Made by a program: the position numbers and the translations under genes. DNA of 64,000 nucleotides from Oceanotoga teriensis (GTDB taxonomy: Bacteria > Thermotogota > Thermotogae > Petrotogales > Petrotogaceae): positions 91,930-155,929 of the forward strand of contig NZ_QGGI01000004.1 in NCBI RefSeq assembly GCF_003148465.1, in the 5' to 3' direction. Of this stretch, positions 1 to 13,953 are shown in pieces. The stretch's first letter is position 1. Each line of letters opens with the position of its first letter. The notes beneath the pieces were generated by a model. The model did no database searches and had not been told where the DNA came from. It was given only the letters and a program-made list of their open reading frames with translations.

Positions 1-1111
1 TTATATCATTCAAAATTTTTTTATCGGTATATGAAAAATCTACATTCTCTAATTTTATTTCTTCTATATTTTCTACTATCTTTTCTTCTTCATTTTTTCT
101 TTCATCATTAAATTCAAAAATATCTTTAATTTTTATTATTGAAGGAGAAAAGAAGTTTCTATTTTTGAACAGATAATTCATAAAAGGAGTTATATTAGAA
201 TTTATTATACCTATATAAGTTAATATAAAAAATATTTGATCAATACCAATGCTTTTATTTAAAATATAAGAAATATAAAACCAAATAAATATCATTGAAT
301 AATAAATATAATCTAAAAAATTGAAAGGAAATAAAAAATTTGATAATTCTTTTGTCCAAATTCTTTTAAATCCTAAATAAATAGATTGCGAATTTTCTTC
401 AAATTTTTCTAATTCATAGTCTTGTGATAAAGTTGATTTTATTTCTAATCTTCCTTCCAAAGAATCATTAACATAACTAATTAATTTTCTCGAACTTTCC
501 ATTAAATTACTATAATCTTCAAATCCAGGTATTTTACCTTTATTTTTTTCCATAGAAGGCCTCAAAAAGATATATATATAAATAATAAAATATATTATTG
601 AAATAAAAGAAGATACAATATCTATAAAAGATAATATTATTATCGCTGTTATTGATATCAATATTGAAAATAAACTGTTTATACTTTGTAAGTTTAATGA
701 TTGAGAAGCTCTTTGTGTATCCGTTGAAATAATTTCTGAATAGTATGAACTTCCATCTTTTTTAATAGTTTTTTCTTTTGATAAAAATATTTTTTTATAA
801 AGTTTTTCTTTATAAGATTTTTCTATTTTATAAGAAAGTATAGAAGATATATAATCTAATATATAATTTAATATTAAACTTGAAGTGTAGAGTATTCCAA
901 ACAATAAAATTAAATTTAAGGCCATTTTATTTTCTAAATTTGAAATCAAATCTTTATATATAAATGGAATATATAGATTAATTCCAATTACAATGGCTGC
1001 ACCAAAAAATAAAACTGTGAAAATAATTTTTTCTTTTTTATTTAAATTTTTTGACATCCAAATAAGATTTTCAAATTCTTTTTTGGTATTTATTATAAAT
1101 TTATTTTTCAT
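1..1111 (-). CDS. ABC exporter, permease-ATPase half transporter (C-terminus outside window)
   Basis: The reading frame starts at 1111 (ATG, with GGAG six bases upstream) and runs off the left edge without a stop. The visible 370 residues form a transmembrane exporter domain with several hydrophobic helices. They then enter an ATP-binding domain at a 'LENVDFSYTDKK' type A-loop, just before the window ends, so Walker A is not visible. There is no C39 peptidase domain at the N-terminus. The gene lies 11 bp downstream of the radical SAM gene and is read the same way, so the two are probably cotranscribed. Exporters in this position usually move a modified peptide across the membrane. That role is inferred from context. 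Partial gene. Confidence 0.9.
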   Translation of the reverse strand, partial: MKNKFIINTKKEFENLIWMSKNLNKKEKIIFTVLFFGAAIVIGINLYIPFIYKDLISNLENKMALNLILLFGILYTSSLILNYILDYISSILSYKIEKSYKEKLYKKIFLSKEKTIKKDGSSYYSEIISTDTQRASQSLNLQSINSLFSILISITAIIILSFIDIVSSFISIIYFIIYIYIFLRPSMEKNKGKIPGFEDYSNLMESSRKLISYVNDSLEGRLEIKSTLSQDYELEKFEENSQSIYLGFKRIWTKELSNFLFPFNFLDYIYYSMIFIWFYISYILNKSIGIDQIFFILTYIGIINSNITPFMNYLFKNRNFFSPSIIKIKDIFEFNDERKNEEEKIVENIEEIKLENVDFSYTDKKILNDI

Positions 1112-1122
1112 AAAAAACTCCT

Positions 1123-2391
1123 TTAATAATTTAATAAATTAATATAATCATCTAAAAAATATTTTTGAGGTATACATGATTTCTTTTTTTTAATTTCTTT
1201 TATATAATTACAACCTCCAAGACATAATGGAAGAACTTTACATTTTTTGCATTCATCATCTAAACTCAATTTTTCCGAAAAGGTATTTTTATGTTTATAA
1301 AAAAACAAGTTACCGTCATTATTTATTTGGCCTATAATATTATTTTCGTTAAAATCTGTTCCTGTGCATATTATTAATTTAGAATTAGGTAAAATAAAGT
1401 AAGTGTTTTTTGTTCCTGCTTTACAAGAATTGTATTTATCTTCGTAAAACCAATGATCTACATTAAATCCTAAATTTTTTATATATAAATAAAAATTAAT
1501 TATTTTTTTTATAATTATTGTTTTTTCTTCTAATAAACCAGGAGATTTTTCTGGATTTTTATGAATAGGATTTAAACTTATTATTATTTTATTTTTATAA
1601 TTTAAGAAATTTTTTAAAAAATTTAGATTTTCTGTTTTCATATCACTATAAATATTGATTCTTAAAGTTAAGATTATATTGTTATAATTTTTTAATAAAT
1701 TTATTAAATTTTCAAAAATTACTTTAAAAGTATTAACATTTTTATTAATCTTTAAAAAACGATTTTTATTATGAGTCTCCTGATTACCATCAAGAGTTAC
1801 TTGAAAGAATTTAATATTTAAATTTTCTACTAGATTTTTAGTTATTTTATTTGATAAAATATATCCATTTGTGACAATTGATGAATTAAATTTTATGTTT
1901 GAATAATTATTAATTATATAAGAATTTACATCATTAATTTTATTTAATGATAATAAGGGTTCGCCACCAAACCAAGAAAGATTTAAAGTTTTTTTATCTT
2001 TTATATTTAAATCAATAAATTTAAATATTGAATTTATATTATAAGAATCAAAATTTATTTTTTTATGATGTTGATAACAATAGCTACATTCAAAGTTACA
2101 ATTTAATGTTGAAAATAAAATTAAATTTAATGTATCATTATTTTTTATTTTGTTTAATATCAAATTATTTATGAAAAATTCTTCTGAAAAATTATCTTCA
2201 ATTAAAAATTTATTTTCAGATAAAATATTCAATAAATCTTTAGAAATTTTTTTATTGGGAAAGTTTAAATTTATTAATAATTCGTTTTTTATATCTGAAG
2301 AAAAGATTATTATAGATTTATATAATAAATTACATAAAATGTAATCATTATTATTTACTTTTTTTATTACATTATAATTAGAAATTTTCAT
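1123..2391 (-). CDS. Radical SAM/SPASM peptide-modifying enzyme
   Basis: A 422-residue radical SAM protein. The 4Fe-4S/SAM motif CX3CX2C is C98-C102-C105 in 'CNFECSYC'. The C-terminus carries a SPASM domain with the spacing CX2CX5CX3C ('CKKCKVLPLCLGGC'), preceded by two further Cys and followed by one, for auxiliary iron-sulfur clusters. The first 85 residues resemble the N-terminal region common in RiPP-modifying enzymes of this class. The start has GGAGG just upstream. It sits between a 32-residue Cys-containing peptide gene and an ABC exporter, so installing a thioether or similar bond in that peptide is the likely job. The chemistry cannot be read from sequence. Family assignment is secure; substrate is inferred. 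Confidence 0.92.
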   Translation of the reverse strand: MKISNYNVIKKVNNNDYILCNLLYKSIIIFSSDIKNELLINLNFPNKKISKDLLNILSENKFLIEDNFSEEFFINNLILNKIKNNDTLNLILFSTLNCNFECSYCYQHHKKINFDSYNINSIFKFIDLNIKDKKTLNLSWFGGEPLLSLNKINDVNSYIINNYSNIKFNSSIVTNGYILSNKITKNLVENLNIKFFQVTLDGNQETHNKNRFLKINKNVNTFKVIFENLINLLKNYNNIILTLRINIYSDMKTENLNFLKNFLNYKNKIIISLNPIHKNPEKSPGLLEEKTIIIKKIINFYLYIKNLGFNVDHWFYEDKYNSCKAGTKNTYFILPNSKLIICTGTDFNENNIIGQINNDGNLFFYKHKNTFSEKLSLDDECKKCKVLPLCLGGCNYIKEIKKKKSCIPQKYFLDDYINLLNY

Positions 2392-2439
2392 GATAAACCT
2401 CCAATACTCAATAAAATATTTATTTATAATATTTATATA

Positions 2440-2473
2440 AAACTATAAGGTGCTTTTAAGCACCTTATAGTTT
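2440..2473 (-). terminator. Attenuator/terminator hairpin after the precursor peptide
   Basis: A perfect 16-bp inverted repeat (arms 2440-2455 and 2458-2473, two-base loop) begins in the last bases of the peptide gene. On the minus strand it is followed by a short T run (TTTTAT). It lies between the peptide and the radical SAM gene. Such a hairpin would let the peptide be made in excess over its enzyme by partial termination or by 3' end protection. Confidence 0.75.
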
Positions 2474-2570
2474 AACAGCCAAAACAATTACCATTTCCTG
2501 GTTCAACTTTATCTTTTTTATCCCCAGATATGTTTATTGGTCTAGAAATTACTTGAACCTTTTTATTCAT
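2472..2570 (-). CDS. Putative RiPP precursor peptide (32 aa, C-terminal CFGC)
   Basis: A 32-residue frame with ATG at 2570, GGGGGTG about 8 bases before it and a strong promoter upstream. The peptide begins MNKKVQVISRPINI, continues through a Lys/Asp/Glu-rich middle and ends EPGNGNCFGC. The two cysteines near the C-terminus are the likely modification sites, with the first 20 or so residues as leader. It is directly upstream of a radical SAM/SPASM enzyme and an ABC exporter, the classic order of a sactipeptide/ranthipeptide-type locus. From memory, Thermotoga maritima has a comparable arrangement around the small peptide TM1316; this was not checked. Alternatively the CXXC could bind a metal. 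Function is unproven. Confidence 0.72.
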   Translation of the reverse strand: MNKKVQVISRPINISGDKKDKVEPGNGNCFGC

Positions 2571-2601
2571 AATTTTCACCCCCATTTTTCGTTAAGGTTT
2601 A

Positions 2602-2836
2602 TTAATAAAATTATACATATTTTTATATGGTAGTCAAGTTGTCTTACGAATATTTGAAATTATCATTAATAAAGAATTTTTATTTTTTTATTTTTAAATA
2701 ATAGTTCGAATATGGCACTATTTTTTATTAAAATAAAAATAATACCTTTAACAAATAGAATTTAAAGGTATTTCAAAGTTTGAAAAATTAATTTATTTTT
2801 AAAAATGGAATGTTTTTTTTTAGTTAATTTTAAGTT
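2602..2836. repeat. Control-region repeat, copy 1
   Basis: About 230 bp that recur with frequent scattered differences at 4695-4931 in the same orientation. It contains a promoter (2610-2637) and a conserved 'gaatatggcactatttttta' block. It also has an inverted repeat (2740-2749 with 2764-2773) flanked by A/T runs, which could terminate the exporter gene ending at 2879. No other gene lies in this gap. Confidence 0.85.
2610..2637 (-). promoter_or_regulatory. Sigma-70-type promoter for the precursor peptide
   Basis: On the minus strand, TTGACT (2632-2637) and TATAAT (2610-2615) are separated by 16 bp. Transcription would start about 30 bases before the peptide ATG. The same promoter is present in the second repeat copy at 4703-4730. 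Confidence 0.8.
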
Positions 2837-2878
2837 AATTTCTGATAACTTTAAATTGATATAATTTTTATTTGAAAA

Positions 2879-4561
2879 TTATATTTGATTTTTAAAAATA
2901 TTTATATAATCTTTTGAATTTTTCATTAAATATTCATGAGAACCAGAAGCGGTTATTTTTTTATCATTTAATACGAATATTTTTTCACAGTATTTTATTG
3001 TAGATATTCTATGGGAAAGTATTATTATTATGCTATTGAGAGATAATAATTTATTCATAATATTTTTTTCATATATAGAGTCTATTCCAGAAGTTGCTTC
3101 ATCGAGAATGATTATATCTGGATTTCTTAAAAAAATTCTTGCAAGGCCTATTCTTTGTTTTTGACCTAATGATAAATCTCCAAATCCTTCTCCTATAAAA
3201 CTGTCTAATGATAGATTTAATCCACATATGTTAAGAATATCAGTTATTCTTTCTTTTTCAGTTTTTATACCCATCGTTATATTTTCATATACTGTTCCTT
3301 GGAATATGTGAGGATTAGAGCCTGTATAAAGTACTTTTCTTTCAAATTCTTTTACACAAATATTGGTGATATTCGTGTTGTTTATATATATTTCACCATT
3401 TTGGGGATATATAAATTTTAATAAGATATTTGCTAAAGTAGATTTTCCACTTCCACTTTGCCCGACTATAGCTATTTTTTGGTTTTCTTGAATTATTAAA
3501 TTTATATTTTCTAATATAGGATGATCTTTTTTATAATAAAAATTAATATTTTTGAATTCTACTTTATTTATCTTTTTAAAAGAAATACTTGAATCATAAT
3601 TCATTTTTGTTTCTGTTAAATTGAAAAAATCAATTATTTTTTCAGCTATAGGAATAGTTTTTAAAGTGGAATTCCATATATAAGATATTCTTTCTATATT
3701 ATTGTATAAAGTACCAAGATAAGAAAAGACCGCTATAACAACACCTATTGAGGTTAAATTTTTCTTTATTAATACTAATCCTAAACCGAGAAACAATAAT
3801 GGTAATAGCGTTGAAAGATACTGTTGTATTCCATAGTTTAAAGTTTGGTACTTTGCAAGTGGTTTAACTTTTGATATCCATTGTTGAATAAAATTTTTAA
3901 CTTTTGATATAAAAAATTTTTTTGAATTATATATATTTATTTCTTGTGAGCCATCTAAAGTATCTCTAAATATTTCAATAGTTTTTGAATAGTCTTCTCT
4001 TTCAGATCTTGATGAATCTTGTAATTTCTTTATATAACCACTCATAGAAAAATAATATAATAAGGTTGATAATAATGCCATTATTCCAAAGATATAATTA
4101 AAAGACCAAATTATTATTATACCTATTATAAAATTTAATATTTCAAGTAATATAGCATAAAATGCTGATATAGAACGTCCAACTTTTTCTGTATCTGAAA
4201 TAGCTATTGATAGTATTTTACCTCTTCCATTTTTATCAAAATAAGAGAATGGAAGATTTAAAGATTTTATCAGTATTTTTTCTTTTAATTGAGCTCCAGC
4301 AAGAGATTCTGAAATGTTACTAATATATCCAGATATTATTTCTATTAAAATACTCAAAGTTGAAGCTATTAAAATATATATTAAATATAATATGATTTTT
4401 TTTAATTCAAATTCTCCTATATTATCAAAAAGAACTTTTAGCATTATTGGAATTATTAATGTAAAAAAAATCTCAAATAATCCAAGAGTAAATAATGAAA
4501 TTTGATATTTTATATTTGTTTTTATAAGATTCAAAAAAAATTTAAAAGTTTTTTTATTCAA
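2879..4561 (-). CDS. ABC exporter, fused permease-ATPase
   Basis: A 560-residue half transporter. The N-terminal ~300 residues form the six-helix exporter domain. The ATPase domain has Walker A 'GQSGSGKST', the signature 'LSLGQKQR', Walker B 'IIILDEATSGIDS' and the H-loop 'LSHR'. The start is TTG at 4561 with GGAGTG seven bases upstream. No peptidase domain is present. It has its own copy of the promoter cassette that also precedes the precursor peptide, so the two units should be co-regulated. It may pair with the partial exporter at the left edge as a heterodimer, or act as a separate exporter or immunity pump. The family is certain; the cargo is inferred. Confidence 0.92.
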   Translation of the reverse strand: MNKKTFKFFLNLIKTNIKYQISLFTLGLFEIFFTLIIPIMLKVLFDNIGEFELKKIILYLIYILIASTLSILIEIISGYISNISESLAGAQLKEKILIKSLNLPFSYFDKNGRGKILSIAISDTEKVGRSISAFYAILLEILNFIIGIIIIWSFNYIFGIMALLSTLLYYFSMSGYIKKLQDSSRSEREDYSKTIEIFRDTLDGSQEINIYNSKKFFISKVKNFIQQWISKVKPLAKYQTLNYGIQQYLSTLLPLLFLGLGLVLIKKNLTSIGVVIAVFSYLGTLYNNIERISYIWNSTLKTIPIAEKIIDFFNLTETKMNYDSSISFKKINKVEFKNINFYYKKDHPILENINLIIQENQKIAIVGQSGSGKSTLANILLKFIYPQNGEIYINNTNITNICVKEFERKVLYTGSNPHIFQGTVYENITMGIKTEKERITDILNICGLNLSLDSFIGEGFGDLSLGQKQRIGLARIFLRNPDIIILDEATSGIDSIYEKNIMNKLLSLNSIIIILSHRISTIKYCEKIFVLNDKKITASGSHEYLMKNSKDYINIFKNQI

Positions 4562-4694
4562 GATATTTCACTCCACATATTAATAATAGAATTTATATCT
4601 CTTTTTTCTATTTATAAAATTTTTAGATACAACAATTTCTAAAGTTAATAGAAATTTATTTTCATTGATTAAGTTTAATCCATGTTAAGTATTG

Positions 4695-4931
4695 TTAATA
4701 AAATTATACATAATTTTATATGGTAGTCAAGTGATTTTGTAAATACTCAAAATCATTATTAATAAAGAGTTTTTGTTTTTTTATTTTTATTGAATATTTT
4801 GAATATGGCACTATTTTTTAATAAGATAAAAATAATATCTTTAAAAAATAGAATTTAAAGGTATTTCAAAGTTTAATGAATTCATTTGTTTTCGAAAATA
4901 GAATATTTTTTTAAAATTAATTTAAGGTTGT
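4695..4931. repeat. Control-region repeat, copy 2
   Basis: This matches copy 1 (2602-2836) over about 230 bp in the same orientation. It includes the promoter, the 'gaatatggcactatttttta' block and the inverted repeat (4834-4843 with 4856-4865). In this copy the stem carries a C-to-T change that still allows a G-U pair in plus-strand RNA. The 4562-5005 gap holds only this repeat, the exporter leader and the mpg promoter. No second precursor peptide was found in it. Confidence 0.85.
4703..4730 (-). promoter_or_regulatory. Promoter of the ABC exporter gene
   Basis: On the minus strand, TTGACT (4725-4730) and TATAAT (4703-4708) are separated by 16 bp, as at 2610-2637. The leader to the TTG start is about 135 bases and contains no convincing peptide gene, only frames of a few codons. 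Confidence 0.78.
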
Positions 4932-4952
4932 TTTTATGTTTAGTTTTTTTTG

Positions 4953-10909: not shown

Positions 10910-11401
10910 ATGAATCAAAATGGAGTTATGAAATTTATATACGGTATAATTTTCATATTTATAGGGCTTTTAATATTTTTTAGAGGATATATAAATGTAA
11001 ATATCTGGGAGTATATATGGCCTTTATTTATTTTGTTGGCTGGATTTGGTTTTGAAATTAGTTATTTTGGTAATAGAAGACAAGATCCAGGGATACTTGT
11101 TCCAGGTGGAATATTAACATTTTTGGGAATTTTTTTCTTTTTTAATGCCTTTACCAGATTTTCATATATGGATACATTATGGCCTTTATTTATATTTGCT
11201 CCAGCTGTAGGGCTTTTTCAACTTGCATATCATTCTAAAAATAGAGCGGTTATGATACCTGTTTATATATTAACGGGTGTTTCATTTGTTTTTTTGATGA
11301 TAAATATTGCTGGAACTAAAGTAGGTTCTTCTTTGATAGGTGCAGGGCTTGTAATTCTTGGAGTATTGATACTATTAAATATGAAAAAAGAAAATAGATA
11401 A
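10910..11401 (+). CDS. Small membrane protein, LiaI/LiaF-like transmembrane region
   Basis: A 163-residue protein made almost wholly of about six short membrane helices. They are arranged in repeats with 'iWPLFiLlaG'-type turns ('YIWPLFILLAGFGF' and 'TLWPLFIFAPAVGL'). This pattern is seen in the transmembrane part of LiaF-like and DUF5668-type proteins. There is no soluble domain. It follows the GH65 gene by 19 bp with a GGGGGA ribosome site, so the two may be cotranscribed, although a functional link is not obvious. Function unknown; the family assignment rests on pattern only. Confidence 0.7.
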   Translation: MNQNGVMKFIYGIIFIFIGLLIFFRGYINVNIWEYIWPLFILLAGFGFEISYFGNRRQDPGILVPGGILTFLGIFFFFNAFTRFSYMDTLWPLFIFAPAVGLFQLAYHSKNRAVMIPVYILTGVSFVFLMINIAGTKVGSSLIGAGLVILGVLILLNMKKENR

Positions 11402-11472
11402 ATCGTTTAAAGAATATCTCAAAGTAACTATATTCATTATATCTATTTCTTGAATGAAACGGAGTGAAAAAG

Positions 11473-12036
11473 ATGGCTCAACAGTATACAAAGAAAATGA
11501 TACGTGATGTTTTTGTTCAAATGCTAAATGAAAAGCCATTTGATAAGATTACAGTGAAAAATATAGTTAATAAATGTAAAATTAATAGAAAAACATTTTA
11601 TTATTATTATGAGAATTTATATTCCGTTCTTAGAGAGATATTTGAAAGCGAAATAGAAGATGTTATAGCTCAATATAATGAAACTCAATCTTGGGAAGAG
11701 AGTTTTATATTCGCTGCGAGGTTTTCTTTAGAAAATAAAAAAGCAATTTATCATGTTTTTAACTCAATACATAGAGAAGAATTGGAAAGATATCTTTATA
11801 CTATTGCAGGTAATGTTATGTTTAGATATGTAGAAGATATAAATAAAAATATTCAAGCGAGTGACAGAGATAAGAAGATTATTGCCTCATTTTATCAAAG
11901 TGCTCTCACTAATATGGTACTTCATTGGATTGCAGATGGTATGGTTGAAAAACCTGAAATCATAATTCGACGTATAGGGGCTTTATTTGATGGCAATATA
12001 TCTGAATCCCTTAAAAGAAGTAAGAAATTACCCTAA
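11473..12036 (+). CDS. TetR/AcrR-family regulator, probable regulator of the oleate hydratase gene
   Basis: A 187-residue regulator. The N-terminal helix-turn-helix reads 'FDKITVKNIVNKCKINRKTFYYYYENLYSVL', and the helical C-terminus binds an unknown ligand. The ATG at 11473 has GGAGTG six bases upstream; an in-frame GTG at 11464 overlaps that ribosome site and is less likely. It sits 147 bp upstream of the oleate hydratase gene in the same direction, separated by a strong hairpin. In other bacteria TetR proteins beside ohyA respond to fatty acids. No clear palindromic operator was recognised here, so the regulatory link is inferred from adjacency. Confidence 0.85.
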   Translation: MAQQYTKKMIRDVFVQMLNEKPFDKITVKNIVNKCKINRKTFYYYYENLYSVLREIFESEIEDVIAQYNETQSWEESFIFAARFSLENKKAIYHVFNSIHREELERYLYTIAGNVMFRYVEDINKNIQASDRDKKIIASFYQSALTNMVLHWIADGMVEKPEIIIRRIGALFDGNISESLKRSKKLP

Positions 12037-12056
12037 TAAAATTAAATTTATTAATC

Positions 12057-12099
12057 AAATACAAAGCAGTGTCCAAAAATCGGACACTGCTTTGTATTT
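12057..12099 (+). terminator. Strong hairpin after the TetR gene
   Basis: A perfect 18-bp stem (12057-12074 with 12082-12099) and a seven-base loop, ending in tttgtattt. A TTGACC follows at 12098, but no well-spaced -10 goes with it: TATAAT at 12128 lies 24 bp away. A regulated ohyA promoter is possible. Confidence 0.8.
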
Positions 12100-12183
12100 G
12101 ACCGTAGTAATAATTTGATCACATTGCTATAATAAAAATGAATGAGATGTTTTAAATATGAAGCGAAAAAAGGAGGTTTTTTT

Positions 12184-13953
12184 ATGTATTATAGTAATGG
12201 GAATTATGAAGCATTTGCTCGTCCAGAAAAACCTGAAGGAGTAGATAAAAAATCAGCATATTTAGTAGGTTCAGGATTGGCATCACTGTCAGCAGCTGCA
12301 TTTTTAATTCGTGATGGTCAAATGAAAGGTTCTAATATTCATATACTTGAGGAATCTGATATTTCAGGGGGAGCATTAGATGGTATAAATGATCCACAAA
12401 AAGGTTTTATAAGTCGTGGTGGACGTGAAATGGATAATCATTTTGAGTGTTTATGGGATTTGTTTCGTTCAATTCCTTCAATTGAAACGGAAGGTATAAG
12501 TGTTTTAGACGAATATTATTGGTTAAATAAGCATGATCCAAATTATTCATTGATGAGAGCTACAGAAAACAGAGGTGAAGATGCTCATACTGATGGGAAA
12601 TTTGAGCTTTCAGAAAAAGCCTCTATGGAAATAATGAAAGTATTTTTTATGCGTGAAGAAGATCTTTATGATAAAAGAATAAATGATGTTTTTTCAGAAG
12701 AATTTTTTTCATCTAATTTTTGGTTGTATTGGTCAACTATGTTTGCATTTCAAAAATGGAGTAGTGCGCTTGAAATGCAGAGATATATAAAAAGATTTGT
12801 TCATCATGTTGGCGGACTTCCAGACTTTAAGGCTTTAAGATTTACAAAATATAATCAGTATGAATCTCTTGTATTGCCTTTGATGGAATATTTAAAGAGT
12901 TATGGTGTTGATTTTCAATACAATGTAGCCGTTACAAATGTTATTTTTGATATTGATAAAGATAAAAAAGTGGCAAAAAAAATAATTTGTACACGTGATG
13001 GAAGAGACGATGAAATATCTTTAACAGAAGATGATCTTGTATTTGTAACTAATGGTAGTATAGTTGATAATTCAACACTAGGTGATGATGACCATGTACC
13101 AGAAATAAATTATTCAGAAGGTAATTCTTGGAAAGTTTGGAAAAATATTGCAGCACAAGATTCAGTGTTTGGTCGTCCAGAAAAATTTTGTAATAGTATA
13201 GAAGAAACAAATTGGGAATCAGCCACAGTTACAACTTTAGACAAAAGAATACCAGAATACATAGAAAAAATATCAAAAAGAGATCCATTTAGCGGTAAAG
13301 TCGTTACTGGTGGTATTGTTACGATTAAAGATTCCAATTGGTTGATGAGTTGGACTGTAAATCGTCAACCTCATTTTAAATCACAACCTGATGATCAAAT
13401 TGTTGTATGGGTTTATTCTTTATTGACAGATGTTCCAGGCAATTATATAAAGAAGTCTATGAAAGATTGTACAGGTAAAGAAATAGTTCAAGAGTGGTTG
13501 TATCATCTTGGAGTACCTGAAGATCAAATTGAAGAAATGTCTGAAACTGGAGCTCATTGTATTCCATGTATGATGCCTTATATAACGGCTCATTTTGCAC
13601 CAAGAGCTGAAGGAGATAGACCAAATGTAGTACCAGATGGATGTACTAATTTTGCATTTATTGGTCAATTTACAGAAACACCACGTGATACAGTATTTAC
13701 AATAGAATATTCTACAAGAACTGCTATGGAAGCTGTTTATACTTTATTGAATATAGATCGTGGAGTACCGGAAGTTTATGGCTCTAAATATGATGTTAGA
13801 TGTTTGCTTGATGCAACATCAAAGATGAGAGATGGTAAAAAAATAACAGATGCGGGACTTTCTCTTGAAGCAAAACTTGCAATTAAGAAAATAAAAGGTA
13901 AGATAGCTGGTACTGTAATTGAAGATCTTTTAAAAGAATATAATTTGATATAA
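12184..13953 (+). CDS. ohyA: Oleate hydratase (myosin-cross-reactive antigen family)
   Basis: A 589-residue FAD-dependent enzyme that adds water to the cis-9 double bond of oleic and related acids, giving 10-hydroxy fatty acids. The dinucleotide-binding motif is '[17 protein letters not shown]' (residues 29-45). The family signature '[17 protein letters not shown]' places the catalytic Glu at E82, the number it has in Staphylococcus OhyA. The ATG at 12184 follows AGGAGG. Length is normal for the family, and no break is seen. The role is usually detoxifying host- or environment-derived unsaturated fatty acids. It is monocistronic, with a terminator behind and a TetR gene in front. Together with the fab operon regulator, it suggests exposure to exogenous fatty acids. 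Confidence 0.95.

Follow-up and report, generated by a model that had tools for sequence, protein, structure and literature searches.

What does a gene of 32 codons, ending in two closely spaced cysteines, make beside a radical SAM enzyme and ABC exporters, and what governs its expression? The gene was found in a stretch of 64,000 nucleotides from Oceanotoga teriensis (hereafter the window; G000:C4:91930-155929 of a 2.79-Mb genome), and the adjoining stretch of the contig (L037, C4:80001-99500) was read as well. Positions given without a contig or locus name refer to the window.

Precursor gene and its homologue

The gene (2472..2570, minus strand) encodes the peptide MNKKVQVISRPINISGDKKDKVEPGNGNCFGC, with the core ...GNGNCFGC, and GGGGGTGA sits immediately 5' of it. 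Since 45 open reading frames of at least 25 residues overlap the first 9 kb of the window in the ORF listing, a 32-codon frame by itself could be due to chance. This explanation was ruled out by a homologue in G038, a genome of the same family but of a different genus, where a 32-residue frame, MKKDTKIKIISKPTTLSGSISPSPKNGNCFGC, preceded by a perfect ribosome site (AAGGAGGTGA), is followed after 61 nt by a radical SAM gene whose product is 55% identical to the window enzyme (rSAM1). The two peptides share their length and the NGNCFGC end, and their alignment score was 75, compared to 24 for the best of 2,000 shuffles. The preliminary description had placed a gene with an NCFGC end and a strong promoter of its own at these coordinates, which proved correct, and the homologous small peptide that it proposed to look for beside related radical SAM genes in other genomes is present in G038.

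Among 103 Thermotogota genomes, a small gene ending in NCFGC-stop beside a radical SAM gene was identified only in the window genome and in G038, a count that leaves out three further matches (L145-L147); the CFGC core is so far known from these two genomes only. Four other candidates were rejected: at L143 and L149 the NCFGC-stop or GNCFGC-stop motif ends no short precursor gene, and the locus maps of L150 and L151 hold neither a radical SAM gene nor a small Cys gene. A stricter CFGC-end pattern had three hits among 398 genomes from a different phylum, none of them with a radical SAM gene within about 1.5 kb. In profile searches no NCBIfam or Pfam model matched the precursor, and its two Cys in 32 residues set it apart from SCIFF peptides, which have six Cys in about 45 residues.

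Maturation enzymes, exporters and operon layout

The radical SAM/SPASM maturase rSAM1 (P0001; 1123..2391, minus strand) matched the Radical_SAM profile with 48.2 bits and the SPASM profile (TIGR04085) with 38.5 bits (cut-off 27). In an alignment of four sequences, C98-X3-C102-X2-C105 and seven cysteines of the SPASM region (323, 342, 381, 384, 390, 394 and 406) were invariant, in agreement with the intact CX3CX2C and SPASM motifs reported earlier. The locus thus has the hallmarks of a radical-SAM RiPP: a short precursor with a C-terminal Cys core, adjoining and conserved with an enzyme that carries the CX3CX2C motif and the SPASM auxiliary-cluster cysteines. The NCBIfam profile nearest to rSAM1 is the Clo7bot maturase TIGR04334, and those of TIGR04463, CefB and PapB (NF047865) are close as well. 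TIGR04334 and TIGR04463 are matched over nearly their full length; however, rSAM1 reached only 143.7, 139.3 and 81.6 bits for TIGR04334, TIGR04463 and PapB, against cut-offs of 600, 525 and 340, and it stays under every NCBIfam equivalog cut-off, that of the Clo7bot maturases included.

Downstream of rSAM1 lies ABC exporter 1 (2..1111, minus strand; covering the membrane part and the beginning of the ATPase), which the window edge truncates and which a scaffold gap of 97 N (L037:11833-11929) interrupts immediately ahead of the first window position. Outside the window it is followed by ABC 2 (G000:C4:89365-91065) and, overlapping the latter, by a second radical SAM gene of 361 codons (rSAM2; G000:C4:88290-89375), for which the best NCBIfam match, TIGR04340, scored 176 bits (cut-off 400). 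The order of the operon, which extends beyond the window edge, is precursor, rSAM1, ABC, ABC and then rSAM2. Upstream of the precursor, an ABC exporter of 560 residues (2879..4561, minus strand) forms a transcription unit of its own, with a copy of the precursor-operon promoter in front; its domains are ABC membrane and ATPase only, and no leader peptidase was found. Both exporters of the preliminary description, one on either side, are therefore present, and its reading of the layout as that of a radical-SAM RiPP system is well supported by the homologous peptide beside a related enzyme. The RiPP encoded here combines a new core with an extra radical SAM enzyme.

The tandem ABC genes (L037:9365-11065 and 11055-13040) have ATPase parts with 99.9% DNA identity over 776 nt, while in G038 the corresponding stretches (L133:1-769 and L039:1-769) are 100% identical over 769 nt, and both assemblies break at this repeat. 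The near-identical ATPase halves look like the outcome of concerted evolution, unless they are an assembly effect. In G038, contig C7 begins inside an ABC gene; the first 769 nt of contig C6 are identical to that gene and lead into a second radical SAM gene, whose product is 60% identical to rSAM2. Relatives of rSAM2 (E<=1e-20) occur in two of the 103 Thermotogota genomes, which are the two with a CFGC precursor. Judging from these sequences, and with the G038 genes joined by deduction across the contig break, the five-gene pathway is very likely a conserved unit. A role in defence was set aside, as both radical SAM enzymes match viperins in PADLOC, proteins with the radical SAM fold in common. 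Separately, a contig filed as archaeal (Thermococcus sp. MAG, L112:2389-4180) carries a relative of rSAM1 together with two Cys-rich precursors in tandem, their Cys regularly spaced; this could reflect a transfer or a misbinned contig.

Predicted chemistry

In the four closest precursors, Asn stands at position -3 of eight of the ten Cys (binomial p 1.5e-6 versus 12% Asn), in the forms NGNC, NDGC, NTNC, NCNC and NGTC; the remaining two are the last Cys of CFGC, which have Cys at -3 instead. Across 18 precursors from related loci, Asn precedes 42 of the 107 Cys at this position, and no other offset exceeds 22. Among the closest relatives, the leaders resemble one another near an I-x-[KR]-P motif, although the exact residues vary (for example MQGVKVIKKP..., MQGVKVVRKP..., ...KIKIISKP... 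and ...VQVISRP...). Both CFGC peptides contain N26-x-x-C29, which has the spacing of NxxC ranthipeptides. In NxxcA of Streptococcus orisratti, a C-beta thioether joins Cys23 to Asn20 (PMC8326336). Given the likeness of the NxxC pattern to this link, a ranthipeptide-type thioether between Asn26 and Cys29 is predicted for the window peptide. Of the earlier label “sactipeptide/ranthipeptide-like”, the radical-SAM class was upheld, and the Asn counts at -3 narrow it to predicted NxxC (ranthipeptide) chemistry.

The window peptide resembles NxxcA and NxxcB in being a presumed radical SAM-made Cys peptide with Asn three residues before Cys (PMC8326336), but its locus differs from theirs in the second radical SAM gene, the terminal CFGC and a host that belongs to a phylum of diderm thermophiles. 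In short, the operon probably cross-links the 32-residue peptide at a cysteine and then exports it.

A promoter shared across the locus

The precursor operon is preceded by the promoter box TTGACTACCATATAAAAATATGTATAAT (2610..2637, minus strand; TTGACT-N16-TATAAT), with the element TAGTGCCATAT 83 nt upstream of it (2710..2720, minus strand). A second copy of the box, TTGACTACCATATAAAATTATGTATAAT (4703..4730, minus strand), and a second copy of the TAGTGCCATAT element (4803..4813, minus strand) stand before the 560-residue exporter. These belong to a duplicated promoter region of 251 bp (family D2), the copies of which (2591..2841 and 4684..4934, minus strand; L037:14520-14770 and L037:16613-16863) are 83% identical. 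The third gene with such a box is a small one outside the window, at C4:86208-86336. All three sites share the form TTGACTACCATATA-N-AA...TAT, with TAGTGCCATAT 82-83 nt further upstream.

This pattern was found at three sites in the 2.8-Mb genome, all of them within the locus, compared to none in the reversed control. A broader form of the box, TTGAnnnYCATATnnnAAnnnnTATnAT, gave 28 sites in eight genomes of the family and none in the controls, most of them adjoining regulator, signal-peptide or RiPP genes. Where the downstream gene was read, it mostly encoded a signal peptide, 93-104 nt off, and the remainder were mostly radical SAM, transporter or RiPP-cluster genes. In the CFGC locus of G038, a near-match to the broader box lies between the regulator and the operon.

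The secreted peptide and the regulator family

The small gene at C4:86208-86336 encodes a peptide of 42 residues, MKKVIVILTLLFILLIQISIFGDEIIRKDPTSISPINKEKLI, consisting of a signal sequence and about 20 further residues, and has a weak ribosome site (AAGG). Candidate forms of the signal would include DEIIRKDPTSISPINKEKLI and its C-terminal 5-15-mers. Divergent from it is the gene of a 532-residue regulator (C4:86632-88230), and this pair sits at the far end of the operon in G000. Judged from the starts of homologues, the likely start codon of the regulator is ATT at L037:6632 (C4:86632), after AAAGGGGTGG, and this unusual start might limit its expression.

No Pfam or NCBIfam model matched the regulator family in profile searches. 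Of the 103 Thermotogota genomes, 57 contain the family, one of them with as many as 15 matches, and some copies carry stop codons. Outside the phylum, 299 sampled genomes from the phylum of Tissierella gave six marginal matches; of the four examined, three read as MiaA-like and the other as a general TPR-like protein, and none was taken as a true member of the family. Among the individual cases, a second copy in the window genome (L099:8398-9999, G000:C8) lies near ABC genes, with no detectable signal peptide or box. Another genome of the same family (G048) has 15 matches (L089-L093, L141 and L142), some of them broken by stops, and several of its regulators adjoin different RiPP-type operons, with SPASM radical SAM enzymes or other CX3CX2C proteins.

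A divergent gene for a signal-sequence peptide was present within 650 nt of 31 of the 46 regulators, compared to 8 of 251 other genes (Fisher p ~2e-23), counting non-redundant, testable cases under a heuristic definition of signal peptide, in loci that were gathered through radical SAM and regulator searches and come in part from related, hence not independent, genomes. In one locus (L087) the count also picked up a Cys precursor beside the true signal peptide, and for 15 of the 46 regulators no signal peptide was detected by the criteria used. The paired peptides (for example MKKFIVALLITVLVLGSIFVFGGDDGGENGTSGLKPTEIVSVVEEVE and MKKIIILIMAIIILSSTMVYGGDDKSNSTTHSTNPQIQTEVSE) have variable C-termini behind a similar signal sequence, and many are followed by a Cys precursor, a radical SAM gene and ABC exporters. 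Conversely, a signal-peptide gene with a box (L137:2982-3125) has no regulator within the 6-kb stretch read, and possibly represents an orphan pheromone. Gene content, conservation, co-occurrence, promoter sharing and the pairing of peptide with regulator are established at the level of sequence; the shared promoter and the pair of secreted peptide and regulator look like an unrecognised signalling family of the phylum that controls RiPP loci.

Predicted structure of the regulator and likeness to RRNPP systems

The AlphaFold model of the regulator (41 sequences; pLDDT 89.1, pTM 0.89) comprises helices over residues 1-275, a short segment of strand and helix (284-336) and a helical C-terminus. 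The middle segment (consensus SxxxLxxILxGKTKxIxxxTLRKII) was read as a putative Cro/CI-type HTH from its sequence pattern and weak matches. A profile search of PDB sequences returned weak TPR-type matches and, over residues 295-351, the HTH protein HipB (E 0.033). Foldseek found no match to the model at E<=0.001, so that the likeness to RRNPP receptors is suggestive only; TPR proteins were common in the list, none at this threshold, and the non-significant second rank was Rap of phage phi3T with its pheromone (E 0.11, probability 0.98). The C-terminal half alone gave no significant Foldseek match, with PrgX, PlcR and Stl among the noise. We infer, as a motivated reading rather than a demonstrated homology, that the regulator would be both pheromone receptor and transcription factor.

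SHP/Rgg pairs, which are RRNPP systems, control radical-SAM RiPPs in streptococci (PMC13361665). The present locus shares with these a short secreted propeptide beside a predicted helical-repeat regulator, with promoters in common with a radical-SAM RiPP operon, and the small adjacent propeptide gene typical of RRNPP systems is reflected in the pairing counts given above. However, the regulator has no Pfam TPR or HTH match, its model places the helical repeat first and the HTH-like segment internally, whereas RRNPP regulators have an N-terminal HTH followed by TPRs, and its family was found in Thermotogota, with no true match in the 299 genomes from the phylum of Tissierella. By analogy, we propose that the circuit may work like RRNPP signalling, and do not claim membership. 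Text searches returned no paper on RRNPP signalling in Thermotogota; the one containing both words concerns phage-plasmids.

The probable TM1316 locus of Thermotoga maritima

The preliminary description had compared the locus with TM1316 of T. maritima, and the comparison is apt. In a genome that we take to be that of strain MSB8 (G090, with locus L087), three genes of the regulator family were identified. One of them (L087:10311-11918) is divergent from a 54-residue signal peptide, which is followed by an operon (L087:12355 onward) with a 31-residue Cys peptide, MQKMPKPVVPNDYLNPGKGCGGAGLVCGWCG, a 463-residue CX3CX2C protein and ABC genes. From layout and length, this locus is presumably TM1315-TM1319, and the 31-residue peptide TM1316. 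Under this assignment, the pheromone would be TM1315, with TM1316 as the output. In work by Frock and colleagues from 2013, TM1316 reportedly exceeded all other T. maritima genes in transcription during stationary phase; we know of no regulator or activity for it, and no paper containing TM1315 was found in text searches. The two loci have in common a divergent regulator of the same family, a signal-sequence peptide, a short Cys precursor, a radical SAM gene and ABC exporters. Unlike the window locus, that of TM1316 has the precursor MQKMPKPVVPNDYLNPGKGCGGAGLVCGWCG, which lacks CFGC, and a more distant radical SAM enzyme, and rSAM2 has no relative in its genome at E<=1e-20. In a T. maritima-like genome (L088), identical 65-residue signal peptides (L088:3133-3330 and L088:13161-13358) occur in two regulator pairs about 10 kb apart, the second of which has no Cys precursor directly behind it on the locus map.

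Proposed circuit and alternative explanations

We consider it rather probable that the RiPP operon is under peptide-pheromone control, through the regulator and the secreted peptide. We infer peptide import and binding, the direction of regulation, the chemistry and the activity of the product as follows. The 42-residue prepeptide would be secreted by Sec and trimmed, and at high density its C-terminal part would re-enter the cell and bind the helical-repeat domain of the divergent regulator. Acting at the three promoters of CATAT type in the locus, this protein may then switch on the precursor operon as well as the genes for the signal peptide and the extra exporter. rSAM1 would join a Cys thiol to the beta-carbon of the Asn three residues upstream, rSAM2 would make a further change, perhaps at Cys32, and the ABC exporters would secrete the modified peptide, for which a role in competition or towards kin is more likely than one as the signal.

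A different view accepts the RiPP operon as real and lets the regulator, as an ordinary repressor or activator, answer another cue, with the secreted peptide merely one of its targets (envelope or toxin-like). It is in keeping with the lack of a significant structural match to RRNPP receptors, with a ligand and direction of the circuit that are deduced, and with at least one signal-peptide gene that has no regulator nearby (L137). Yet the consistent divergent pairing, the variable C-termini behind a similar signal sequence, the many paralogues per genome and the predicted helical-repeat fold all resemble pheromone circuits, and we hold this view to be unlikely. Alternatively, the CFGC peptide could itself serve as signal or could be an aggregation factor associated with the envelope, in line with what has been suggested for TM1316, for which antibody work by Frock and colleagues in 2013 is said to have indicated a location in envelope and aggregates and no growth inhibition. 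A core that is identical in two genera, unlike that of a fast-evolving bacteriocin, fits such a role, but the secreted peptide with its paired regulator and the same promoter already fills that of the signal, which makes this still less probable.

The preliminary description had leaned towards signals rather than bacteriocins for such peptides, a suggestion for which no support was found; the signal is better sought in the 42-residue secreted peptide, and the output in the CFGC peptide. As for a metallophore or redox cofactor precursor, the C-terminal CxxC, its conservation as CFGC and the two radical SAM enzymes may recall peptide-derived cofactors, but three exporters under shared promoters, relatives that are multi-NxxC peptides and no dehydrogenase partner seen nearby make this very improbable. 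Pheromone control of the operon remains the reading that we favour.

Implications for Thermotogota

Whether Thermotogota own a pheromone and receptor family, its receptors built of a helical repeat, an internal HTH and a helical C-terminus, with many paralogous pairs per genome that each gate a different radical-SAM RiPP operon, appears to us evenly balanced. If true, this would amount to phylum-wide quorum sensing in diderm thermophiles, unrelated in sequence to RRNPP, and to a large number of RiPP operons, as yet uncatalogued, whose NxxC code can be read. With a regulator and pheromone pair heading the TM1316 locus and its relatives, the puzzle of TM1316 would become experimentally approachable.
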